Positions 3,347 through 17,042 of a DNA stretch of 64,000 nt are shown one piece after another. The stretch's first letter is position 1. Each line of letters begins with the position of its first letter. The notes beneath the pieces were generated by a model that was given only the letters and a program-made list of their open reading frames with translations, searched no databases and was not told the origin of the DNA. The DNA is from Butyrivibrio sp. (GTDB lineage: Bacteria; Bacillota; Clostridia; Lachnospirales; Lachnospiraceae): the NCBI GenBank assembly GCA_024694565.1, contig JAILJR010000151.1, positions 1 to 64,000 on the forward strand, given 5' to 3'. Made by a program: the position numbers and the translations under genes.

Positions 3347-5818
3347 ATGGATAATAAAGAAAAAGCCGGAAACAGTGTTATGCTGAAAATTTGCGCATTT
3401 ATCGTAGATAAGAGAAACCTGTTTTTTCTTATCTACGCTATTTTGTGCATTTTTTCTGTTATTGCAAAGGGTTGGGTTAAGGTTGAGAATGACCTTGCCG
3501 AATATCTTCCACCGACATCTGAGACCAGAAGAGGTCTTGACCTGATGGCGGAACAGTTCACAACCTATGGAACTGTTAAAGTCATGGTGGCCAACATCTC
3601 CTACGATCAGGCACTGGAAATCAAGGAGGCACTTGAGAATATTGACGGGATATTCTCAGCCGATGTTGACGACACAGATGCACATTATAACAATGGATCA
3701 GCTCTTTTCAATATAACATTTGACTATGATGAGAGCGATGATCAGTGTCTCGTTCTTCTTGATGAGGTCAAGGAGTTTTTTAGCAAATATGATTCATATC
3801 TTTCAACATCACTGGGAGACATTCAGTCTGAACTTATCAACAAGGAGATGAGTGTCATCTCTGTTCTTGTTGTCATCATTGTTGTGGCAGTTTTGCTGCT
3901 TACATCACAGGCTTATGCCGAGGTCCCTGTTCTTCTGCTAACCTTTGGAAGTGCCGCCCTCGTTCAGATGGGGACAAACTTTCTTCTCGGCACAATTTCC
4001 TTTGTGTCTGACTCCGTGACAGTTGTCCTGCAGCTGGCGCTGTCGGTTGACTATGCCGTTATTTTCCTGAACAGATACAAGGAGGAGCATGCACAGCTCC
4101 CTTACCGTGAAGCGACTATAGTAGCGCTGGCTAAATCCATTCCCGAGATCTCGGGCTCGTCTCTGACTACCATGGGTGGTCTTATTGCAATGCTGTTTAT
4201 GCAGTTTGGAATAGGCTCGGACATGGGTATCGTACTTATAAAGGCTATTGTACTCAGCCTTTTGTCCGTATTCCTTCTTATGCCGGGCATTATCATGGTG
4301 TTCGCACCACTCATGGAGAAGACCCAGCACAAAAACTTCATTCCACAGATTCCCTTTGTTGGAAAATTTGCTTTTGCCACAAGATATGTGGTAGCTCCTG
4401 CTTTTGTAGTGGTGATCATTATCGCCAACAGGATTTCTTCAAGCACACCTTATGTTTATGGATATTCCAAAATTACTCCGCCTCTTACCAATGAGGTGCA
4501 GGAAGCTGAGAATATGCAGAATGCCAATTTCAAATCGGATAACATGGTGGCGCTTGTCTTCCCTGCAGAGGATTATGATACTGAAAAGAAGCTTATCGAT
4601 GATCTTCTTGCAAACGGAAATGTCAACTCTGTAACAGGTCTGGCCAATACCGAGGCTATAGGAGGATATACCCTCACTGAAAAACTGACTCCGCGTCAGT
4701 TCTCTGAGCTTTTGGACATCGACTACGAGGTGGCTGAGCTAATTTATACAGCCTACGCAGTCAATGATGAGGACTATGCCAAGGCTGTCAACGGGCTTGC
4801 CAATTACAGGGTTCCGCTCATCGATATGTTCATGTTTGTTTATGATGAGGTAGAGCAGGGATATGTCACACTTGACGATGAGCTTATGAAAAAGCTTGAT
4901 GATGCCAACAGGATGATGACCTTTGCCAAGAATCAGCTAAGAAGTGATGAGTACTCCAGGATTCTGGTTTATTTATCCCTTCCTGAGGAGTCTGATGAGA
5001 CCTTTGCTTTTATTGATGAGCTGCATACCATAGCAGAGAAGTACTATGACAGAGATAAAATCTATGTCGTTGGGGAGTCTGTGAGCCAGTATGACTTGAA
5101 GAAATGCTTTGCAAGAGACAACACGGTTACCAGCGTAATTTCAATTCTTGCGGTTCTGGTTGTGCTTCTTTTTACCTTCAAGTCTGCGGGAATGCCTGTG
5201 CTATTGATTGCTGTAATCCAGGGATGTATCTGGATCAACTTCTCATTCCCGGCAATAGAGCATGACAACCTGTTTTTCCTTGGATACCTTATAGTCAGTT
5301 CTATTCAGATGGGTGCAAATATTGACTATGCCATCGTTATTGCCGGAAGATATACGGAGCTTAGAGAGAGTATGGGTAAGAGGGATGCGATTATTGACAC
5401 TATGAACCTTTCCTTCCCGACTATCATCACTTCCGGTACAATGCTTGCAGTTGCAGGAACCCTTATTGGTAAGATGACATCAGATGCCGCTATCTTCGGC
5501 ATAGGAAAGTGTCTGGGAAGAGGAACCATTATCTCCATTTTCATTACGATGTTTGTTCTGCCACAGATACTTCTGGTGGGAGATAAGGTAATAGAGCTTA
5601 CTGCTTTTGTTATGAACATGCCGCTGCAGAACAAACAGATGTCCGGTTCTATGCGTATCGACGGCATGGTACGAGGCAAAATCGATGGAACCGTCAACGG
5701 TGTTGTTCATGCTATAGTTAAGGGTAATGTCAGCGCCTACATTGATAATGGCAATGTAGAAATGATAGATAACGATGATGATCCCGAAACAAATAATCTG
5801 AGGCAGGAGGGTGTGTGA
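3347..5818 (+). CDS. RND/MMPL-family exporter with a beta-repeat C-terminal tail
   Basis: About 823 residues with the two-fold RND layout. A membrane helix and soluble loop are followed by a helix bundle around SVDYAVIFLNRYKEE, then a second soluble loop and a second bundle around GANIDYAIVIAGRYTE. These D-Y-A motifs are typical of MMPL/hydrophobe exporters driven by the proton gradient. I chose the ATG at 3347, behind GGGGGA, over the in-frame TTG at 3332. Unusually, the last ~50 residues alternate hydrophobic and Gly positions (MRIDGMVRGKIDGTVNGVV), like the beta-helix of bactofilins. The next gene starts 2 bases after the stop, so the exporter and the GLUG protein are probably made together. 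Substrate unknown. Confidence 0.88.
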   Translation: MDNKEKAGNSVMLKICAFIVDKRNLFFLIYAILCIFSVIAKGWVKVENDLAEYLPPTSETRRGLDLMAEQFTTYGTVKVMVANISYDQALEIKEALENIDGIFSADVDDTDAHYNNGSALFNITFDYDESDDQCLVLLDEVKEFFSKYDSYLSTSLGDIQSELINKEMSVISVLVVIIVVAVLLLTSQAYAEVPVLLLTFGSAALVQMGTNFLLGTISFVSDSVTVVLQLALSVDYAVIFLNRYKEEHAQLPYREATIVALAKSIPEISGSSLTTMGGLIAMLFMQFGIGSDMGIVLIKAIVLSLLSVFLLMPGIIMVFAPLMEKTQHKNFIPQIPFVGKFAFATRYVVAPAFVVVIIIANRISSSTPYVYGYSKITPPLTNEVQEAENMQNANFKSDNMVALVFPAEDYDTEKKLIDDLLANGNVNSVTGLANTEAIGGYTLTEKLTPRQFSELLDIDYEVAELIYTAYAVNDEDYAKAVNGLANYRVPLIDMFMFVYDEVEQGYVTLDDELMKKLDDANRMMTFAKNQLRSDEYSRILVYLSLPEESDETFAFIDELHTIAEKYYDRDKIYVVGESVSQYDLKKCFARDNTVTSVISILAVLVVLLFTFKSAGMPVLLIAVIQGCIWINFSFPAIEHDNLFFLGYLIVSSIQMGANIDYAIVIAGRYTELRESMGKRDAIIDTMNLSFPTIITSGTMLAVAGTLIGKMTSDAAIFGIGKCLGRGTIISIFITMFVLPQILLVGDKVIELTAFVMNMPLQNKQMSGSMRIDGMVRGKIDGTVNGVVHAIVKGNVSAYIDNGNVEMIDNDDDPETNNLRQEGV

Positions 5819-5819
5819 A

Positions 5820-8800
5820 ATGAATAGGAGGCTAGTAGCGGCCGTTACAGCAGCACTGCTGTTTTCAGGCTCAGCCATCATTTCTTTTGCTGAAAATGAT
5901 ATAGTTAGTACGGAAAATCAAGGCGATAATACAAAGCTGATAACTACAGGTACTCAGACAAAGGCCGAAGAAGATGTGGTTGACGTGGATGAGGACATAA
6001 GAGATGAGGTTTTGGCTAAGATACCTCAGGAGATGGAGGAGATAAGAATCTCATCAGCCGCTGATCTTATAGAGCTGGCAAATAACTGCAGACTCGATAC
6101 ATGGTCAGTGAATAAAAGGGTGATACTTACTTCGGATATCAGCCTGGTCGGAAAGGATTTTAAGGGAATACCTTCATTTGGAGGAGAATTTGACGGTCAG
6201 GGTCATACTATTTCTGAGTTCAATGTAAAGGATGAACTGTCCTATGTTGGATTTTTTGTATACTTGCAGGAAACTGCAAAGGTAAGCAACCTTAACATAG
6301 CCGGTTCTGTCATGCCTGCAGGAAGTCCGGTGATAGTTGGTGGAGTCTGTGGTGACAATCATGGATGTATCAGGGAATGTACATTCAAGGGCATAGTGAA
6401 GGGCAGCGATTATGTTGGCGGACTGGTCGGAATGAATGAGCTTACAGGAACTATCAGCTTCTGTACATCAGAGGGCTTCATAAACGGTATTCATTTTACC
6501 GGAGGCATAGCCGGTGAGAACAGGGGAAATATTGAGAACAGCAGAAACGAAGCAACTGTCAACACCACAAATACTGATACTCAGATCACCCTTGATTCAA
6601 TGGAGAACCTCAACAAGCTCCTTAATCTGATTAAGAATGTCAAAAACAGTGATGATGAGGCTTACAAGGATGTGACAATTTCTGATATCGGCGGTATAGC
6701 AGGTACTTCGATCGGTATTATCTCAAGATGTATCAATAACGGAAGTGTGGGTTATGAACATGTGGGATACAATGTCGGTGGAATTGCGGGAAGGCAGTCC
6801 GGGTATATTCTGGGGTGCTCCAATAACGGAAGGATCCTTGGAAGAAAGGATGTTGGCGGAATAGTAGGCCAGGCTGAGCCATATATAACAGTAGATCTGT
6901 CTTCTGATATTGCCTATCAGTTATCTGAGGCCATTGCAAAGCTTCACGACTCTGTGACAGTGACACTCAATGACGCCAAGAGCCAGTCGAACACAATTTC
7001 AAACAGACTGGCAATGATCCAGCAGTTTACCTCACAGGCTGTTGAGGATACCAGATTTATTGCAAACGGAACCGTTGATTTTGTAAACGGTATTTCCGGA
7101 GCCGCAAATACAGCTATCTCAAGAGCGGACTACATTCTTGATGAAGCTTCAAAGAGTGGCGGCTTAATGGATCAGGCATCAGATACTGCCAGGAATTTCC
7201 ATTATTCAACTGTCTTTTTGGGAGAGACAATTGACGACCTGAGTCTTCGCCAGTATATGACAGAGGCGGAGAAAACCGATTATGATACGGCAAAAAATGC
7301 TCTTGATTCTATTGATGCCCAGTTTAATGACAATTACGACAGAGCATTTGAGAGATTTTATAATCAGAACATTCACAGAAATGCCGGTGAAAGTGAATAT
7401 ACAGCTGACCTGAGATTCAAGTCAGGCGATGAATATTTAGCTCTTGATCCCGGGGCAAGTGCAAGAGACGATCTGGACGGAACGGGCAGTGGAATAACCG
7501 CGCGCGATGGCTACTGGGTTCACTATGTATCGGATGATGATACAAACAGCTTCCCTCTGGATGATGGATCTGAGAAGGCAGGAGCTGACAAGGCCTTGGA
7601 CGCTGAATCATCTGTTTTTGCAGATGCACAGGCAAAGGCATATGCTTATGAAGTTTATCAGTCACCCGAGGGCTATTACTCCGGAAATATGATAGAGGAT
7701 GTAGCAGCAGCCGGCGGTACAATGATCGAAATTATCCGCAGACACTTTCCGGAGATGGCAACAGAAGCCAGATCCGACATTGAGCTTGCAGCCAATCGCT
7801 TTGAGGCGGCAACGGGAGCTTTGTCGGGGGCTACAGATGCCGCCAAGAGCATAGTCAGCACAGTGGCAGGATATGACAGAATTGAAATACCGTCTCTTTC
7901 CGATGAGTATAAAGCTCATACCAACAGTCTTGCTGACAATATGGCAAGCATGAATGACAATTTTGGCATTCTCAATCAGGAAGTAAACGGTGCTACCGGA
8001 GTTCTGGTGGATGATCTGCTGGCAGTAAGCGACCAGTTCAATAGTATTCTTGAACTCTACACGGATGCGATTGACGGAGTACTTGACAAGGATTACACCA
8101 CAGTGTTCGAGGACAAGTCGCTTGAGGAGGCAACATTTACAACAGATGCAACAGTGGATTCCTGTTTTAACTACGGAAGCTGCGAGGGTGATATTGATGT
8201 ATCCGGAATTGCCGGAACCATGGCCATTGAGTATGAATTTGACAAGGAGAGTGCTGTAACAGGTATCAAGGATGCCAATATGAACTCGTCCTTCCTTACA
8301 AAATGTGTTCTTCGTGATAACAGAAACTACGGTGATGTTACAAGCCAGAAAAACTATGCAGGCGGAATATGCGGACTGCAGGAGATGGGAACGATCATAA
8401 ACTGCGGAAGTTATTCTAAGATTCTGTCCAAGACAGCAGATTACGTCGGAGGAATTGCCGGTGGTTCCTATTCATATATTCTTGAATCCTATGCAAAGGG
8501 AGAGCTGGACGGCAAGTCTTATGTGGGAGGTGTTGCCGGAGACGGAATGAATATAAGCAAGTGTCTTACACTGGTCGATGTAGGGGAGGCAGAGAGCTGG
8601 TACGGTGCCATAGCAGGTCACGTCGGTGAAAAGGCAGAAGTGCGCGACAACTATTTTGTCAGTGATAGCCTCGCAGGTATAGACAGAGTGAGCTATTCAC
8701 TTAAGGCTGAGCCCATAAGCTATGATGATGTACTTAATAATCGTGTGTTTAAAGACATGGAAAAGGAGACAAAAAAGAAGTCATCACAGGTAGTTCCCAT

Positions 8801-10319
8801 CAGTACCGGAAGTGATGAGAAGCTCACCTATGAAGAGGGCTACAAGGATCTTCCCTACGAGTTTAACTCCCTTGCTGTCAATTTTGTGCTGGAGGATGAA
8901 GATGCTGAAGGCGGGAAGGAAAAAGTAGGAAGGATAAACAAAAAGTATGGTGATACGCTCACAGAGGAGGATTATCCTGTACTTAAAGAGAGAGATGGCT
9001 ATTACGTAGACTGGGACATCAAGGAAGTTGACAACATGACAAAGGATGTAACGGTCACGGCAACCTACAAAAGATACAGAACGACTATAGCATCCGCTGA
9101 GACAACTGAAGGTATTCATATGTCTGATATTCTTGTCGATGGAAATTTCAGGGAAGAAGACAAGCTTGATGTTATAAGGGAAGAACTGCTGGGAGGCGCT
9201 GATAAGGAAGAAGGCGGCGTTACCATGCAGGAGAAGATGCATATTGATATCCCGGATGACGGAAATCAGGTTCATCAGTTAAGGTTCAAGCCCGTGGATG
9301 ATCTCGCTCAGCTTATGGGGGTTATCGGTAAGTTCACAGGCGGCGATATTGTTCTTTTCGAGGAAAAGAGCGGAGAGCTACGGCAATTAACTCCATCAGG
9401 GTCAATGGGCAAATATGCTACATACGACCTTGAGGGTAACAGTGTTACGCTTGCCTATGGTTACAAGGGCATAAATACGCTGGCCTATATTCTTGTGGGT
9501 GGTGTAATACTCGTTGTTTTAATTATTATAGTACTCATCATTCTGAACATTGTATTTGTGGTCAAGCACGGCAGAAAGGTTCCCGTGATGGTTAACAAGG
9601 TTGTCAATAAGGTTTCCGACAAGCTTGAAAACAAGGAGCAGCTTTTCTATGATGATTCCAATGATAAGACGCCTTCTATCCGCGAGCTGTTAAATGAAAA
9701 GTTCTCCGGAAACAGTGCAGCTGATGCCAAGACCAAGGCTGCTGCAGATGATCCTTCAGAGAATACACTGGAAGATGCAGGCAGCGGCGCAAATGAATAC
9801 GCAGAAGAAAGACCGTTAAGTGCTTCCGAAAAAGGCAAAGACAATGATATATCAGAGGATGATCCTGATTACTACTTTGATGAGGATGACGAGGATACCT
9901 TCGATGCTGAAGAATCCTATAAAGATGAAGCTGTAGGGGCAGATGAAAAGAAAGCTCCGGCGGAAAACCAGGCGGTTTCTGCCCAAAAGAAAGCTTCGGC
10001 AGAAAACCAGGGTGCTTTTGATGAAAAGAAAGCTTCGAAAGATGTGAAGATGAATCAGGATGAAAGGAAACCTGACGGAGAAGGTCATACCGGTTCGGCC
10101 GGGAAGGCTTCAAATGCTGTAAATCCATCAAAAGCTGAAGAAGGATCAAAAGACAAAAAAGCATCAGGCGATAAGAAAGCCTTTAAGGATAAGAAGGATT
10201 CCAAGGGTAAGAAATATACAAATTACAAGAAAGCTGCAAAGGTCAGGAAGGCTTCAGAAGATGGGAAGGCATCCAAAGCAGATAGAGCTTTTGTGAAGGA
10301 TGAAAATTCCAAGGAGTGA
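5820..10319 (+). CDS. Giant membrane-anchored surface protein with GLUG repeats
   Basis: 1499 residues. It starts with a signal peptide (about 1-26). A first set of GLUG-type beta repeats (about 165-360, e.g. YVGGLVGMN, VGGIAGRQSG) is followed by a long helical, probably coiled-coil region (about 365-770). A second GLUG set (about 780-960, e.g. YVGGIAGGSY) precedes a small beta region containing KYGDTLTEEDYPVLKERDGY, similar to InlB-type repeats. One strong membrane helix (about 1220-1250) comes next, then a ~250-residue cytoplasmic tail, first acidic and then Lys/Ala-rich with short repeats. The topology puts the repeats outside the cell. Ribosome-binding site AGGAGG; a GTG at 5811 is too close to it. 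Tight linkage to the RND exporter suggests a common envelope function. No enzymatic motif seen. Confidence 0.85.
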   Translation: MNRRLVAAVTAALLFSGSAIISFAENDIVSTENQGDNTKLITTGTQTKAEEDVVDVDEDIRDEVLAKIPQEMEEIRISSAADLIELANNCRLDTWSVNKRVILTSDISLVGKDFKGIPSFGGEFDGQGHTISEFNVKDELSYVGFFVYLQETAKVSNLNIAGSVMPAGSPVIVGGVCGDNHGCIRECTFKGIVKGSDYVGGLVGMNELTGTISFCTSEGFINGIHFTGGIAGENRGNIENSRNEATVNTTNTDTQITLDSMENLNKLLNLIKNVKNSDDEAYKDVTISDIGGIAGTSIGIISRCINNGSVGYEHVGYNVGGIAGRQSGYILGCSNNGRILGRKDVGGIVGQAEPYITVDLSSDIAYQLSEAIAKLHDSVTVTLNDAKSQSNTISNRLAMIQQFTSQAVEDTRFIANGTVDFVNGISGAANTAISRADYILDEASKSGGLMDQASDTARNFHYSTVFLGETIDDLSLRQYMTEAEKTDYDTAKNALDSIDAQFNDNYDRAFERFYNQNIHRNAGESEYTADLRFKSGDEYLALDPGASARDDLDGTGSGITARDGYWVHYVSDDDTNSFPLDDGSEKAGADKALDAESSVFADAQAKAYAYEVYQSPEGYYSGNMIEDVAAAGGTMIEIIRRHFPEMATEARSDIELAANRFEAATGALSGATDAAKSIVSTVAGYDRIEIPSLSDEYKAHTNSLADNMASMNDNFGILNQEVNGATGVLVDDLLAVSDQFNSILELYTDAIDGVLDKDYTTVFEDKSLEEATFTTDATVDSCFNYGSCEGDIDVSGIAGTMAIEYEFDKESAVTGIKDANMNSSFLTKCVLRDNRNYGDVTSQKNYAGGICGLQEMGTIINCGSYSKILSKTADYVGGIAGGSYSYILESYAKGELDGKSYVGGVAGDGMNISKCLTLVDVGEAESWYGAIAGHVGEKAEVRDNYFVSDSLAGIDRVSYSLKAEPISYDDVLNNRVFKDMEKETKKKSSQVVPISTGSDEKLTYEEGYKDLPYEFNSLAVNFVLEDEDAEGGKEKVGRINKKYGDTLTEEDYPVLKERDGYYVDWDIKEVDNMTKDVTVTATYKRYRTTIASAETTEGIHMSDILVDGNFREEDKLDVIREELLGGADKEEGGVTMQEKMHIDIPDDGNQVHQLRFKPVDDLAQLMGVIGKFTGGDIVLFEEKSGELRQLTPSGSMGKYATYDLEGNSVTLAYGYKGINTLAYILVGGVILVVLIIIVLIILNIVFVVKHGRKVPVMVNKVVNKVSDKLENKEQLFYDDSNDKTPSIRELLNEKFSGNSAADAKTKAAADDPSENTLEDAGSGANEYAEERPLSASEKGKDNDISEDDPDYYFDEDDEDTFDAEESYKDEAVGADEKKAPAENQAVSAQKKASAENQGAFDEKKASKDVKMNQDERKPDGEGHTGSAGKASNAVNPSKAEEGSKDKKASGDKKAFKDKKDSKGKKYTNYKKAAKVRKASEDGKASKADRAFVKDENSKE

Positions 10320-10325
10320 TGTTCT

Positions 10326-11009
10326 ATGAAGGAATTATTAGTTGAACTTTTGATGGAGGACAAGACCCTGATTCATGTCCCCTTCGGAAATGGCTTTTTT
10401 GATATTGCAAAGAGCGTGGTTATAACCTGGATAGTAATGGCCATTGTCATAATTGCAGTTCTTTTGCTGACAAGAGACCTGAAGGTTCACAACATTTCCA
10501 GGAGGCAGGCGGTTCTTGAGAGCTGCGTTTTATGGCTTCGCGAGGCCATAGGGGGGATGCTTGGTGAAGAGGGAGCCATGTATTCTGATTATATGGTAAC
10601 GGTACTTGTTTTTATCGGCGTTTCAAATATGGTTGGTCTGTTCGGAGTAACCCCTCCTACCATGGATCTCAATGTTACCATAGCTCTGTCAGTCATGAGC
10701 ATAATCCTGGTTGAGGCAGCCGGAATTGCAAAGAAGGGGGCCAAGGGGTGGCTCAAGAGCTTTGCTGAGCCAATGCCCGTAATAGCACCGATGAATGTGT
10801 TGGAACTGGTAATAAGACCGCTGTCTTTGTGCATGCGACTCTTTGGAAATATTCTGGGTGCGACAGTCATCATGGAGCTTATAAGATCTGTGGTACCGAT
10901 TGTTTTGCCCGCGGCTTTAAGTCTTTATTTCGACCTTTTTGACGGGGCGATTCAGGCATATGTATTTTGTTTTTTGACATCTCTTTATATCAAGGAAGCG
11001 GTTGAGTAA
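10326..11009 (+). CDS. atpB: ATP synthase F0 subunit a
   Basis: 227 residues, five to six membrane helices. The proton half-channel helix NVLELVIRPLSLCMRLFGNI carries the essential Arg, and the last helices contain FDLFDGAIQAYVF. It is shorter than the ~240-270 usual for the subunit but complete in its core. It opens the atp operon six bases after the GLUG protein, so some readthrough from upstream is possible. No atpI precedes it. Confidence 0.97.
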   Translation: MKELLVELLMEDKTLIHVPFGNGFFDIAKSVVITWIVMAIVIIAVLLLTRDLKVHNISRRQAVLESCVLWLREAIGGMLGEEGAMYSDYMVTVLVFIGVSNMVGLFGVTPPTMDLNVTIALSVMSIILVEAAGIAKKGAKGWLKSFAEPMPVIAPMNVLELVIRPLSLCMRLFGNILGATVIMELIRSVVPIVLPAALSLYFDLFDGAIQAYVFCFLTSLYIKEAVE

Positions 11010-11172: not shown

Positions 11173-11391
11173 ATGGATCTAACAGCAATTGGAGCAGCTA
11201 TCGCTGCATTTACAGGAATCGGAGCCGGCATTGGAATCGGAATTGCGACATCAAAGGCAACGGATGCTGTGGCAAGACAGCCCGAAGCGGATGGCAAGAT
11301 AATGAAGCTTCTGCTCCTTGGATGTGCACTTGCTGAGGCAACAGCAATCTATGGCTTCGTAGTGGCAATTATGATCATTCTTTTCTCATGA
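11173..11391 (+). CDS. atpE: ATP synthase F0 subunit c
   Basis: A 72-residue two-helix hairpin. Helix 1 is Gly-rich (GIGAGIGIGIATSKA), the polar loop is ARQPEA, and helix 2 carries the ion-binding Glu in CALAEATAIYGF. Known Na+-binding c-rings have a Gln in helix 1 and a Ser after the Glu. Here those positions look like Ile and Ala, which favours proton over sodium coupling (inference). A strong AGAAGGAGGAG ribosome-binding site precedes the ATG, fitting high expression. Confidence 0.97.
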   Translation: MDLTAIGAAIAAFTGIGAGIGIGIATSKATDAVARQPEADGKIMKLLLLGCALAEATAIYGFVVAIMIILFS

Positions 11392-11413: not shown

Positions 11414-11911
11414 GTGTTAGATATAAGTTTTGTAAATATTATATGTACAATACTAAATCTTCTGATTCTTTACTTTGTATTTAAGAAGTTTCTTTTTGCC
11501 AGGGTGGATGAGATCATAAGGCAGCGCCAGGCCGAGGTTGACAGTGCAACTGATGCAGCTGACAAGGCCACCGATGAAGCGAGACGAACAAAGAAGGAAT
11601 ATGAGGAAAAAATCTCCCTGGCAGATGAGGAAAAGGAGCAGATCCTGTCTGATATCAAGAAGCAGGGCTATGATGAGTATGACAGGATTGTAAATGATGC
11701 TCACAGGAAGGGCGAGCAGATAATCACAGAGGCAAGGCACAATGCCAAGGTTGAAGCTGAGAGATCGAAGGAAGTATATGCAGCTGAGCTCAAATCCATG
11801 GTAATTGAAGCCGCAACGAAAATAGCTGCAACCAGACACAGTTCTGCTGAGGACAGCGAACTCTATGATAAATTTATAAGAGAAGCGGGAGCATTAACGG
11901 ATGACCACTAA
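11414..11911 (+). CDS. atpF: ATP synthase F0 subunit b
   Basis: 165 residues. An N-terminal membrane helix (about 5-25) is followed by a long charged alpha-helical stalk rich in Lys, Glu and Ala. It starts at a GTG behind GGGG. The length is normal for a stand-alone b subunit, so there is no b-delta fusion here. Its end overlaps the next start codon by 11 bases. A normal delta gene would be expected at this point but is missing. Confidence 0.95.
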   Translation: MLDISFVNIICTILNLLILYFVFKKFLFARVDEIIRQRQAEVDSATDAADKATDEARRTKKEYEEKISLADEEKEQILSDIKKQGYDEYDRIVNDAHRKGEQIITEARHNAKVEAERSKEVYAAELKSMVIEAATKIAATRHSSAEDSELYDKFIREAGALTDDH

Positions 11912-13655
11912 TCTCATTGCAATACTTAAGTATGCTTACGCTGCGCCTTCCGAAGAACAGCTTGAAAAGATCAGGAATATCCTCTGCAATAAATTTGAGA
12001 GAAGGGATATTGAGATACAGGTTGAAGAGGATCCATCTGTCGGTGGCGGTTTCATTGTTTCCTGTGAGAATTTCGAGTATGACTGGAGCGATCTTGGAAG
12101 AGCACGTCAGCTGCGAACGGAATTTAATAATGTAAGAACCAAAAACATTGTCTCGGATACAGGCAAGATTATTTCCATGCTAAAGGAAAAGGTCGATGAC
12201 TTTGAGCTTCGTATCTATGACAGAGAAGTCGGAACCGTTTCCTGGGTCGGAGACGGTATAGCGAATATAGATGGTATAGACCACGCTTTTTACGGAGAAG
12301 TCATTGAGTTTGATGACGGGACGAAGGGCATGGTTCAGGATATACGCGATGACCATATCGGCTGCATCCTCTTTGGAAATGATAATACTATAAGGCAGGG
12401 GACAAGGGCGGTCAGGACCTATCAGGAGGCCGGAGTACCTGTCGGAGATGCGTTCATAGGCCGTGTCATAGATGCACTTGGTGCGCCTCTTGACGGACTT
12501 GGTGATATCAAGGAATCCGGTTACAGAGCTGTGGAGAAAGCCGCACCGGGTATTATTGAGAGACAGTCCGTAAATGAGCCGATGGAGACCGGAATTCTTT
12601 CTATAGATACCATGTTCCCTATAGGAAGGGGACAGCGTGAGCTTATCATCGGTGACAGACAGACCGGCAAGACTTCGATAGCGATTGATACTATCATCAA
12701 TCAGAAGGGCAAGGATGTAATATGCATCTATGTCGCCATCGGACAGAAGGCTTCAACCGTTGCCAAGATCATTCAGACTCTTCGTAAAACAGGAGCTTTG
12801 GATTACACAATTGTTGTAAGCTCGACTGCCTCAGAGCCGGCTCCGCTTCAGTACATTGCACCCTACTCGGGAACTGCTCTTGCGGAGTACTTTATGAAGG
12901 AGGGAAAAGATGTACTGATAGTATATGATGATCTCTCCAAGCACGCAGTTGCTTACAGAGCAATATCACTTCTTTTGGAGAGGTCACCAGGGCGTGAGGC
13001 ATATCCCGGAGATGTTTTCTATCTTCATTCAAGGCTCCTTGAGAGGGCAAGTAAGCTCTCGTCAGAGCTGGGAGGCGGGTCAATTACAGCACTTCCGATT
13101 ATTGAAACCCAGGCTGGAGACGTGTCATCCTATATACCTACAAATGTGATCTCAATTACTGACGGACAGATATTCCTGGAGAGTGATCTGTTCTTTGAGG
13201 GAATGAGACCCGCGGTAAATGTGGGCTTATCTGTTTCACGTGTCGGATCAGCTGCACAGACAAAGGCTATGAAAAAAGCTGCAGGAAGTATAAGGGTTGA
13301 TCTTGCCCAATACAGGGAGATGGCAGTATTTACCCAGTTTTCTTCTGATCTTGACGAGACAACCAAAAAACAGCTCGCTCACGGAAAGGTACTTATGGAG
13401 CTTTTAAAGCAGCCCTTAGAGCATCCGCTTGCCATGCACGAGCAGGTCATAATACTTGTTGCTGTGGGGGCAAAGAGACTTGACAGTATTCCGGTAAAGA
13501 AGATAAAGCAGTACAAGGATAAGCTTATTACCTTCTTTAACACAGAGAAGAGCGATATCTGTGAAGAGCTTGAGAGAAGCAAAAATCTGTCTGATCAGGT
13601 AAAGAGAAGCATTATTGAAGCAGTAGATGAGTTTAACAGCAGAGAAGGATATTAA
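11901..13655 (+). CDS. atpA: ATP synthase F1 subunit alpha with an N-terminal delta-subunit C-terminal domain (delta-alpha fusion)
   Basis: 584 residues against ~500-510 for a usual alpha. Residues ~75-584 are a full alpha subunit with VGTVSWVGDGIA, Walker A GDRQTGKTS, the DDLSKHAVAYR region and VSRVGSAAQTK. Residues ~10-72 resemble the C-terminal domain of subunit delta/OSCP: APSEEQLEKIRNIL, then EEDPSVGGGFIVS and LGRARQLRTEF, which match the SEEQ, DPSxxGG and S-x-RGxLxxL positions of delta. The six-helix N-terminal domain of delta, which normally caps F1, is absent from this protein and from the operon. The frame is open throughout, and the start overlaps atpF. The fusion is read directly from sequence; its structural consequence is inference. 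Confidence 0.93.
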   Translation: MTTNLIAILKYAYAAPSEEQLEKIRNILCNKFERRDIEIQVEEDPSVGGGFIVSCENFEYDWSDLGRARQLRTEFNNVRTKNIVSDTGKIISMLKEKVDDFELRIYDREVGTVSWVGDGIANIDGIDHAFYGEVIEFDDGTKGMVQDIRDDHIGCILFGNDNTIRQGTRAVRTYQEAGVPVGDAFIGRVIDALGAPLDGLGDIKESGYRAVEKAAPGIIERQSVNEPMETGILSIDTMFPIGRGQRELIIGDRQTGKTSIAIDTIINQKGKDVICIYVAIGQKASTVAKIIQTLRKTGALDYTIVVSSTASEPAPLQYIAPYSGTALAEYFMKEGKDVLIVYDDLSKHAVAYRAISLLLERSPGREAYPGDVFYLHSRLLERASKLSSELGGGSITALPIIETQAGDVSSYIPTNVISITDGQIFLESDLFFEGMRPAVNVGLSVSRVGSAAQTKAMKKAAGSIRVDLAQYREMAVFTQFSSDLDETTKKQLAHGKVLMELLKQPLEHPLAMHEQVIILVAVGAKRLDSIPVKKIKQYKDKLITFFNTEKSDICEELERSKNLSDQVKRSIIEAVDEFNSREGY

Positions 13656-13657
13656 AA

Positions 13658-14581
13658 TTGGCTAATATAAAGGAGATAAGGGATCGTATAAACAGCGTCA
13701 GCGATACCAAAAAAATCACCAATGCCATGTACCTTATATCCTCCACCAAGCTCAGGAAGGCAAGGAAGATGCTTTCGGACACTGAACCGTTCTTCTTTGC
13801 AACCAAAGCCATGATAGAGAGGCTTGTAAGCCATCTTCCTGAGGGAACCGAGAATATTTTCCTTGAGACAAGGACAGATATTCCCGAGAGGGAGCGTAGA
13901 AGGGGCTACATAATTTTTACAGATGACAAGGGGCTTGCAGGGGCCTACAACCACAATGTTCTAAAGCTTGCTGAACAGCACATCTTCGGTGACGGGGACA
14001 AGTGGAAGCTGTTTGTCATAGGAGAACTGGGAAGATTTCATTTTGCTTCAAGAAGCATGGAGATTGAGGAGTCATTTCTTTTTACCTCACAGAATCCCAC
14101 ACTTCACAGGGCAAGGAAGATTTCCGCGGAAATTCTCGATTACTACTATGAGAGAAAGATTGATGAGTTTTATGTAATATACACAACAGTGAAGGGAAAT
14201 ACCTGCGAGACCAGATTTGAGAAGCTTCTGCCGCTTGAGCTTATTACCGATATCAAGAAATCAGCTCCTCCACAGGGCACAATGCTTGAGGAGTTTCTTA
14301 TGGAGCCAAGTCCTTCGGCTATTCTGGACAATATAGTGCCGAACTATGTCACCGGATTTATTTACGGCGCACTGGTTGAGGCCTTTTGCAGTGTACAGAG
14401 CAGCAGGATGATGGCAATGGACTCCGCCAACAAGAATGCGGAGAAGATGATATCAGAGCTAAAGCGGGTTTACAACAGGCAGCGTCAGGCAATGATAACG
14501 CAGGAAATCACAGAGGTTGTAAGCGGAGCAAAGGCTTTAAAGAAGAGCAAGGAAGAAAGACTGAGAAAGACGAAGGCTTGA
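13658..14581 (+). CDS. atpG: ATP synthase F1 subunit gamma
   Basis: 307 residues, slightly longer than the usual ~285. The N-terminal helix has RDRINSVSDTKKITNAMYLIS, and the C-terminal helix has SSRMMAMDSANKNAEKMI and NRQRQAMITQEITEVVSGA, the conserved rotor coiled coil. The start codon is TTG two bases after the atpA stop, with GAAGGA upstream. The central shaft transmits rotation of the c-ring to the catalytic sites. Confidence 0.96.
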   Translation: MANIKEIRDRINSVSDTKKITNAMYLISSTKLRKARKMLSDTEPFFFATKAMIERLVSHLPEGTENIFLETRTDIPERERRRGYIIFTDDKGLAGAYNHNVLKLAEQHIFGDGDKWKLFVIGELGRFHFASRSMEIEESFLFTSQNPTLHRARKISAEILDYYYERKIDEFYVIYTTVKGNTCETRFEKLLPLELITDIKKSAPPQGTMLEEFLMEPSPSAILDNIVPNYVTGFIYGALVEAFCSVQSSRMMAMDSANKNAEKMISELKRVYNRQRQAMITQEITEVVSGAKALKKSKEERLRKTKA

Positions 14582-14584
14582 TAG

Positions 14585-16045
<1,461 letters not shown>

Positions 16046-16048
16046 TCT

Positions 16049-16486
16049 ATGAGTAAAGCACTGGTAAAAACCTTTCACCTTCAGGTTATATCCGTCAATG
16101 GTGTTTTTTTTGATGATGAGGCAGAGGAAATAATACTTCCCTGCGATGATGGCGAGCTGGCCATATTGGCAGGACACGAGGAGGCAATACTCGCAATCTA
16201 CGAGGGAATTATCAAGATCAAGGATTCAAAGGGCAAATGGAAGATAGGTGTTGTCAGTATCGGTTCAGTTCAGGTCACTGTAGACAACAGATGCATAGTC
16301 CTTGTGAACACTGTTGAAAAACCGGAGGACATCGACAGACGAAGGGCGCAGGAGGCATATGAATTTGCTATGGAGCACCTTCAGCAGAAGCAGTCTATCA
16401 AGGAGTTCAAGAAGTCACAGGCAGGTCTTGCAAGAGCTCTTACAAGACTGAAGGCTGCATCCAAGTATCAGGGCCTCTCCAACTGA
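16049..16486 (+). CDS. atpC: ATP synthase F1 subunit epsilon
   Basis: 145 residues. The N-terminal beta-sandwich (about 1-90) contains FHLQVISVNGVFFDDEAEEI and LPCDDGELAILAGH. The C-terminal two-helix region carries the R-RAQEAYEFAMEHL stretch. It couples gamma to the c-ring and can inhibit ATP hydrolysis. It is the last gene of the atp operon, 3 bases after atpD. Confidence 0.95.
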   Translation: MSKALVKTFHLQVISVNGVFFDDEAEEIILPCDDGELAILAGHEEAILAIYEGIIKIKDSKGKWKIGVVSIGSVQVTVDNRCIVLVNTVEKPEDIDRRRAQEAYEFAMEHLQQKQSIKEFKKSQAGLARALTRLKAASKYQGLSN

Positions 16487-16493
16487 GAAAGAA

Positions 16494-17042
16494 ATGGTGG
16501 AAAATTTGAGAAAAATCAGGAAAAGACAAAAACTGAAGATCATAAGCATATTGCTGTGTGTATTATTTCTTATGACAGCCTGCGGCAAGACAGCTGATCC
16601 TGAGCTTGAAGCGTACAAGGAGAGCATGTCTTCCTTTTATGACAGACTTACATATTTTGATGCAGCAATTAATGCAATAGATCCTAATTCCGAGGATGCC
16701 AAAACCCAGCTTCTTGGGTATATGGATGAAATGAATGCTGAGTACAAAACAATGGCGGAGCTTCAGATTCCTGAAGCCTTTTCGGGAATATCCGGTATTG
16801 CCGCTGAAGCTGCGGATTATATGCAGAAGGCTGATGAGACCTATCATCTTGCATATGATAACGGATTTGATGAGGACAGTGAGATGCTGGCATCACAGTA
16901 TTACCAGAGAGCAAACGCAAGAGTGCTGGTAATGCTGCAGGTTCTTCACGGAGAGGTACCTGAGGGAGATAATGTTACCGTTGAGACAGAGAGTACCTAC
17001 GAGATTTCAACAATTCCCACGGAGTCGCAAGGGAATGAATAA
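16494..17042 (+). CDS. Small predicted lipoprotein of unknown function
   Basis: 182 residues. A positively charged start (RKIRKRQKLK), a hydrophobic stretch and the lipobox LMTAC give a lipidated Cys30. The mature part is helical and acidic, ending in a Thr/Ser/Glu-rich tail. I do not recognise a family. It begins 8 bases after atpC and its end overlaps the acyltransferase gene, so it may be co-transcribed with the atp operon. The start at 16494 is supported by an upstream GAGAAAGAAATG context only; ribosome-binding is weak. Confidence 0.75.
   Translation: MVENLRKIRKRQKLKIISILLCVLFLMTACGKTADPELEAYKESMSSFYDRLTYFDAAINAIDPNSEDAKTQLLGYMDEMNAEYKTMAELQIPEAFSGISGIAAEAADYMQKADETYHLAYDNGFDEDSEMLASQYYQRANARVLVMLQVLHGEVPEGDNVTVETESTYEISTIPTESQGNE

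Follow-up and report, generated by a model that had tools for sequence, protein, structure and literature searches.

A delta C-terminal domain carried on the alpha subunit of a Butyrivibrio F-type ATP synthase: a putative natural multi-stalk enzyme with relatives in other Clostridia

The DNA analysed here (the window, 64,000 nucleotides of contig JAILJR010000151.1 in the Butyrivibrio sp. assembly GCA_024694565.1) holds a single + strand operon for an F-type ATP synthase, in the order a, c, b, CTD-alpha, gamma, beta, epsilon, where CTD-alpha stands for an alpha subunit preceded in frame by the C-terminal domain (CTD) of subunit delta. Judged from the encoded proteins, it is next to certain that delta has been reduced in this synthase to its C-terminal, b-binding domain and relocated to the N-terminus of alpha. 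In the canonical synthase, the N-domain of delta occupies the three-fold axis of alpha3beta3 and its C-domain binds b2, an arrangement that allows a single stalk only (PMC12229609). Ueno et al. (2025) deleted residues 2-104 of the Bacillus PS3 delta and fused the remainder to alpha (PMC12229609; PDB 9jc1), and the resulting enzyme carried up to three b2-a stalks with an H+/ATP ratio of 5.8 vs 3.0 (PMC12229609). We consider it rather probable, by analogy with that construct, that the window encodes a natural multi-stalk synthase with a high H+/ATP ratio.

The fused gene and its operon

An initial annotation of the window had read the 584-codon frame at 11901-13655 as delta C-domain features followed by a complete alpha, in an operon that has no complete delta gene and whose atpF overlaps the start of the fusion. 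Profile searches and the coordinates bear out each of these points. The PF00213 (OSCP) profile aligns its positions 113-170 of 172 with residues 16-73 of the fused protein at 29.8 bits (curated cut-off 22.3), and when the first 90 residues are searched alone, a check which that annotation had proposed for the first 80, the match is significant at E 7.8e-7. The delta family TIGR01145 finds the same N-terminal region at E 1.4e-5 and 25.4 bits, under its full-length cut-off of 57.5; the protein thus holds a delta C-domain and is not a delta subunit with N- and C-domains. A profile built from the C-domains of 37 fused loci in turn picks up the delta/OSCP chains of solved synthases, best of all the PS3 delta (6n2y_I, residues 109-176, E 9.9e-12). 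Residues 89-580 make up a complete alpha (TIGR00962, 761.7 bits, cut-off 484.45), and the same alpha scores 606.4 bits against TIGR03324, the N-ATPase exception family, short of the 750.5 bits set for membership. The N-domain of delta is absent from the operon, there being no space between atpF and the fused gene. The features are as follows:

10326..11009, + strand: atpB, subunit a, 227 aa (PF00119, E 4.8e-43)
11173..11391, + strand: atpE, subunit c, 72 aa (PF00137, E 2.6e-18)
11414..11911, + strand: atpF, subunit b, 165 aa, overlapping the fused gene by 11 nt (PF00430, E 5.9e-11)
11901..13655, + strand: fused gene of delta C-terminal domain and alpha, 584 aa, ATG start
11946..12119, + strand: delta/OSCP C-terminal domain, residues 16-73 of the fused protein (PF00213 positions 113-170)
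12120..12164, + strand: linker from the C-domain to the alpha N-terminal helix, approximately residues 74-88 (alignment to 9jc1_I)
12165..13640, + strand: alpha proper, residues 89-580 (TIGR00962, 761.7 bits)
13658..14581, + strand: atpG, subunit gamma, 307 aa (PF00231, E 5.7e-85)
14630..16045, + strand: atpD, subunit beta, start codon uncertain (PF00006, E 6.7e-75)
16049..16486, + strand: atpC, subunit epsilon, 145 aa, both of its domains present (PF02823 and PF00401)

Occurrence in relatives

A contig scan with the fused protein gave 594 loci, of which the best 80 were kept and, together with the window, form 81 rows. Of these, 44 have CTD-alpha (window included), delta and alpha are fused in full in 18 and encoded separately in another 18, and one row is truncated by the end of its contig. 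Since the loci were picked by similarity, with one search pattern inside the C-domain, these figures should not be read as prevalences. The initial annotation had raised the possibility of a sequencing frameshift hiding an ordinary atpH; because the CTD-alpha architecture recurs in 43 of the best 80 relatives and in single-contig genomes, chance and sequencing error are excluded, and an assembly error is likewise ruled out by these relatives and by named isolates. The latter include Butyrivibrio sp. INlla18 and INlla21, Shuttleworthella satelles DSM 14600 and Faecalibacterium longum for CTD-alpha, and Pseudobutyrivibrio xylanivorans DSM 14809 and the complete genome of Lachnospiraceae GAM79 (L018) for the full fusion. 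The full fusions keep the N-domain of delta and measure ~670-700 aa.

The breadth of the fusion was assessed by searching the 37-row C-domain profile against two overlapping samples, 200 genomes of the window's own family and 293 genomes of its class, with counts made by hand, according to open-frame length, among the matches listed. In the family sample at least 32 of 200 genomes match in frames of 576-636 aa, at least 12 in frames of 669-697 aa and at least one in a 787-aa frame; the class sample yields at least 28 of 293 genomes with frames of 584-651 aa and at least eight with frames of 671-691 aa, spread over 13 family codes. Twenty loci fetched from such frame-length picks all proved to be fusions behind a b gene (16 CTD-alpha, 4 delta-alpha), with gamma recognised 3' in 17; the gamma frame continues into beta at L110 and L112, and the piece ends at L109. 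A further 30 loci, chosen as CTD-alpha by frame length, all encode an alpha of 579-640 aa, and beside none of them was a delta found. The PF00213 search is not fully sensitive, as the fused domain of G631 was missed at E 0.1 and that of G812 fell below the cut-off. The check on conservation that the initial annotation had called for shows the fusion recurring in other Clostridia, with a stand-alone full delta present in some genomes and none found in others.

Several features of individual relatives deserve mention in their own right. Two divergent CTD-alphas (L098, L099) have a long stretch ahead of alpha. Downstream of CTD-alpha in G812 (L110 and L204) and G725 (L112), gamma and beta form one open frame without an intervening stop, which would join a rotor subunit to a catalytic stator subunit unless the product is cut; a methionine lies at the likely beta start. 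Subunit c at a number of CTD-alpha loci (including L048, L050-L052, L054-L056, L058, L061 and L067) is 117-174 aa long with a signal-peptide-like N-terminal extension and an ordinary hairpin, and a duplicated, V-type c was rejected for them since the extra length is that extension. The full-fusion loci include L018, L020, L024, L026, L030, L068-L070, L076, L083 and L105; three N-domains per F1 would compete in these enzymes for the single axial site, and two operons of this type from Ruminococcus metagenome-assembled genomes (MAGs) contain two tandem c genes (L068:3717-4180 and L083:3735-4192).

A full delta and a second synthase in the same genome

In the window's own genome (82% complete, 4.6% contamination, 249 contigs), contig C158 encodes a full delta of 179 aa. 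It belongs to a second, likewise complete operon with the order a-c-b-delta-alpha-gamma-beta-epsilon. Contamination is an unlikely source of this operon, because five more genomes of the genus hold a fused gene together with a separate full delta, namely INlla18 and INlla21 (G001, G002), G171, G766 and G800. The initial annotation had foreseen the combination of a full atpH elsewhere with an alpha translated from an internal start, and the first half of it is present, albeit within its own complete operon, whereas the internal start is only weak (see below).

The C158 delta could supply the fused F1 with a normal N-domain and thereby restore a normal single stalk, and the presence of a full delta in the own genome and in 9 of 24 further fused genomes of a second set speaks for such completion in trans. 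However, the other 15 of these genomes, four of them single-contig (G643, G679, G741, G846), yielded only the fused C-domain at E <=0.1 and no full delta, and the second delta sits in an operon complete in itself. An N-domain profile (23 rows) was also searched against 13 genomes with CTD-alpha, several of them drafts or MAGs, and against five positive controls. All five controls were detected. Five of the 13 CTD-alpha genomes carry the N-domain solely within a separate full delta, and the remaining eight gave nothing credible (best E 0.13). In the own genome (G000), the second-operon delta is the sole match. We therefore regard completion in trans as very improbable. A hidden gene for the N-domain is rejected for the operon itself, and genome-wide the profile finds nothing credible in the same eight genomes. 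PF00213 matches that seemed to run across an in-frame TAA into an N-domain (G008, G011, G012) lie on the C-terminus of b, and the N-domain profile does not reproduce them.

With a second complete synthase in the genome, the fused enzyme might also be a relic of a decaying operon that is no longer assembled, which is the least credible of the explanations considered. All of its subunits are intact, the fused gene is under purifying selection, and in several genomes it looks like the sole F-type synthase. To judge by lengths and scores, the PF00006 matches in the eight genomes without a credible N-domain seem to include a single F-type pair, made up of the fused alpha and one beta, and the remaining matches look V/A-type or export-type. 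Three more ATP-synt_ab matches in the own genome (on C83, C188 and C141) lie outside both F-type operons.

Subunit c of Na+-translocating synthases carries the motif Q/E32, E65, S/T66. Aligned by eye, the window c has I, E and A at these places, which is not the Na+ motif, and the C158 c has E, E and T, the two-carboxylate form, so that an H+ machine beside a Na+ machine is expected. The window enzyme is probably H+-linked, then, and the second synthase canonical and probably Na+-linked. Both the Ech and Rnf pumps are encoded in 47 of 62 butyrivibrio genomes (PMC4478896). For a fermenter whose proton-motive force (pmf) is small, an H+ synthase or pump of low gear would be suitable.

Do all alphas carry the domain?

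Three docking sites per F1 presuppose that each alpha bears the C-domain, and an internal start or proteolysis could add plain alpha, leaving about one C-domain alpha per F1 in a one-stalk machine. In the window, the stretch from the C-domain to the conserved alpha core offers a single in-frame start, the ATG at codon 93, which falls within the N-terminal helix of alpha and has a weak Shine-Dalgarno (SD) interaction (-2.5 kcal/mol vs -6.6 for the start of the fused gene itself). Some of the other fused loci lend this explanation more room, given that 36 of 62 have an in-frame ATG in the boundary region and nine have a start with an SD of -6 kcal/mol or stronger. On the other side, 15 of the 62 contain no in-frame ATG, GTG or TTG there, and no plain alpha was seen in the own genome other than that of the second operon. 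A conserved second alpha product is therefore unlikely, and we judge the mixture of alphas improbable, if slightly less so than completion in trans.

The C-domain is under purifying selection (ratio of nonsynonymous to synonymous changes 0.04-0.32 in the 16 of 20 pairs for which it was computable), weaker than that on alpha (0.03-0.09), these ratios being rough since synonymous changes were saturated in several pairs. The C-terminus of b binds the delta C-domain in canonical enzymes. This end of b is retained in rows of all three gene states (75 rows), with exceptions that include L045 and L084, both of the separate-delta type.

Origins and variant architectures

A tree of 126 alpha cores, from which the fused part was excluded, was calculated by a quick search under LG+G4 with SH-aLRT support only and no bootstrap. 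Parsimony on this tree gives 8 changes for the CTD-alpha state, at least 6 of them forced by starred branches, and 10 for the full fusion, at least 5 of them forced likewise; parsimony cannot separate gains from losses, and the return of a lost domain is unlikely. The CTD-only locus L028 clusters with the full fusions L018 and L022 (support 96), the CTD-only loci L023 and L029 with the full fusions L017, L020, L021 and L076 (support 97), and the CTD-only locus L109 with the separate-delta locus L136 (support 97). The states are likewise mixed in an earlier 82-row tree under a mixture model, in which the position of L028 is slightly different. The tree needs several origins of the state without the N-domain.

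Two further arrangements were each found in one genome. The 778-aa frame L093:3156-5492 of G480 runs from b through the delta C-domain into alpha. A search of this genome for another b gene found none, and the start-like codons between b and the end of the C-domain amount to one TTG and one GTG. Since the only b found there is fused to CTD-alpha, b and alpha would be present 1:1, with three b per F1, unless the product is processed. The 261-aa delta of G826 (L092:3271-4056) combines one N-domain with a tandem pair of C-domains and adjoins a normal 503-aa alpha, a possible two-stalk design.

Beyond the operon in the window, a short lipoprotein-like gene follows directly after epsilon (16494-17042), with no Pfam family matching its product, and is also seen at four Butyrivibrio loci (L012, L013, L014, L075). 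A secreted-looking 1502-aa protein with a GLUG motif (5811-10319) ends 6 bases 5' of atpB; a link between it and the operon is unsupported, as blastp of the open reading frames at the 80 loci found no relative.

How many stalks?

The reading that we favour is that of a natural multi-stalk synthase. Delta has shrunk to its b-binding C-domain, carried on the N-terminus of alpha, and because all three alphas bear this domain and the axial N-domain is gone, we infer three docking sites. F1 would thus present three equivalent sites and, like the engineered copy, take up two or even three b2-a stalks. Each additional a subunit would bring another set of proton passages per turn, and more passages per turn imply a higher H+/ATP ratio and hence ATP synthesis at low pmf; in reverse, each ATP would drive many protons up a small gradient. 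In this gut or rumen bacterium, the enzyme would serve as a low-gear, probably H+-linked machine beside the canonical, probably Na+-linked synthase. The fusion, the missing N-domain, the intact a, c, b, gamma, beta and epsilon, the purifying selection and the preserved C-terminal end of b all support this reading from sequence. Likewise, the claims of the initial annotation that the cap domain is gone, that each F1 has three stalk-binding modules and that the stalk is attached differently survived the tests which it had named, although the attachment itself is something we infer.

If three a subunits are needed per gamma, the ribosome-binding site of atpB should be stronger relative to that of atpG than in canonical operons. 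Among the first 80 loci, the median SD energy of a minus gamma is +3.35 kcal/mol with separate delta (18 loci), -0.9 with full fusions (17) and -3.3 with CTD-alpha (39; p 2e-5). This comparison was exploratory; it was then fixed in writing and repeated on 60 newly fetched loci, three of which had no usable gamma, two of which had an alpha identical to that of a first-set locus, and eight of which came from genomes with a fused gene already seen and unused in the first comparison. The medians of the repeat are +1.7 (28 separate) vs -1.5 (29 CTD-alpha), one-sided p 0.003, and remain +1.7 vs -1.5 without the two identical loci (28 vs 27, one-sided p 0.005); within the own family alone they are +3.9 (8 separate) vs -1.6 (20 CTD-alpha), p 0.019. 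The shift has the direction that three a per gamma would need and is suggestive, while not phylogenetically secured.

A single-stalk synthase in which two C-domains stay idle, either free or packed atop F1 in place of the cap, would account for the same genes at an ordinary H+/ATP ratio, the fusion then serving stoichiometric supply and firm attachment. This is the most serious competitor, and a less likely one. Every characterised one-stalk enzyme works with one C-domain, and the full fusions (18 of 81 rows), which combine an axial N-domain with three C-domains, indicate that surplus C-domains are tolerated or useful while the cap is kept. Against this, the engineered CTD-only copy binds extra b2-a stalks once the docking sites are free (PMC12229609), the N-domain has been lost in several lineages, and the SD of atpB shifts opposite to what one stalk would lead one to expect, though independent pairs do not secure this.

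A number of observations weigh against the multi-stalk reading itself. The stalk number of the natural members is drawn by analogy from one engineered enzyme, for which cryo-EM showed few particles with three stalks and pumping was less active (PMC12229609). Because 18 full fusions keep the N-domain, a fusion by itself does not have to imply a multi-stalk enzyme. The tree offers only three independent pairs on starred branches for the SD comparison, with on average 1.6 pairs as predicted, 0.1 opposite and 1.3 with no difference, a number too small to reach significance. The SD of c relative to gamma shifts too, which had not been predicted, so that a weaker gamma SD accounts for part of the signal. 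Finally, the full delta of another operon, present in 9 of 24 genomes and in the window's own, might help in trans.

Implications

The H+/ATP ratio sets the lowest membrane voltage that permits ATP synthesis. Natural F-type ATP synthases are thought to tune this ratio through the size of the c-ring (PMC12229609), and the engineered PS3 fusion reached equilibrium at a pmf of 68 vs 133 mV under one condition (PMC12229609). If the natural fused enzymes do have several stalks and a subunits, they would represent a second, discrete route of changing gear, evolved several times in gut and rumen bacteria. We would give about even chances to a wider proposal, in which multi-stalk, multi-a F-type synthases are not confined to Acidaminococcus but recurrent in fermenting Clostridia. 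On this proposal they arise in steps, a separate delta first fusing with alpha and the cap then being lost, as well as by other routes (b-CTD-alpha fusion, tandem-C-domain delta). Anaerobes of the gut and rumen would thereby have a synthase or pump in low gear whose H+/ATP ratio exceeds the natural ones measured, and in some species a canonical synthase differing in gear and ion would run alongside it. Nature may have made low-voltage multi-stalk motors repeatedly. Butyrivibrio sp. INlla18 and INlla21 carry the fused enzyme beside a canonical synthase, which makes the idea directly testable, and the series of separate delta, full fusion and CTD-only fusion is a natural experiment on the purpose of the delta N-domain.

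Comparison with known systems

The full delta-alpha fusions of the same clade (for example L018 of Lachnospiraceae GAM79 and L020 of Pseudobutyrivibrio xylanivorans) have the C-domain in frame ahead of alpha and an identical operon order, and differ in retaining the N-domain of delta at ~670-700 aa. The PDB 9itj series, an F-type synthase which we take to be from Chloroflexus aurantiacus, contains 12 delta chains for 18 alpha chains over 6 entries and 36 a chains over 18 entries, which implies two delta and two a per F1; its delta, however, is a separate 157-aa chain that is not fused. The b-delta fusion of mycobacteria and Gordonia (PMC5709465; PDB 7jg5 chain d) also joins delta to another stator subunit, but the partner is b instead of alpha and delta is not cut down to its C-domain. 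The N-ATPase (TIGR03324) shares an operon without a separate delta (PMC5709465), whereas its gene order differs and the window alpha lies under the cut-off of the family.

A natural delta-alpha fusion without the delta N-domain has been reported for Acidaminococcus fermentans and the UniProt entries G4Q3K6 and A0A1I2C5T3, and was termed "highly likely" to be multi-stalk (PMC12229609). Compared through this published description, the Acidaminococcus type is the same fusion, while the window and its relatives belong to Butyrivibrio and other Clostridia and come with intermediates. The architecture was thus already noted in print in 2025 for other bacteria, and the window is another example of it. 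In the open-access literature, most subscription papers being outside the search, Ueno et al. (2025) is the one paper that was recognised as treating delta-alpha fusions, and no description was found of the fusion in Butyrivibrio, Lachnospiraceae or Ruminococcaceae, nor of the full delta-alpha and b-CTD-alpha forms. Beyond the descriptions found there go the breadth in Clostridia, the intermediates, the recurrence, the co-residence with a canonical synthase, the b-CTD-alpha fusion and the tandem-C-domain delta.

The engineered deltaDeltaN-alpha PS3 FoF1 is a close counterpart. Both enzymes are without the N-domain of delta, and in both a short linker connects the C-domain to the alpha that follows it; residues 11-567 of the fused protein align with chain 9jc1_I in one stretch, with a 2-residue difference in length at the linker. 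The PS3 enzyme is man-made and without the epsilon C-domain, whereas the window operon has a two-domain epsilon, and the number of stalks has been shown for the PS3 enzyme alone.

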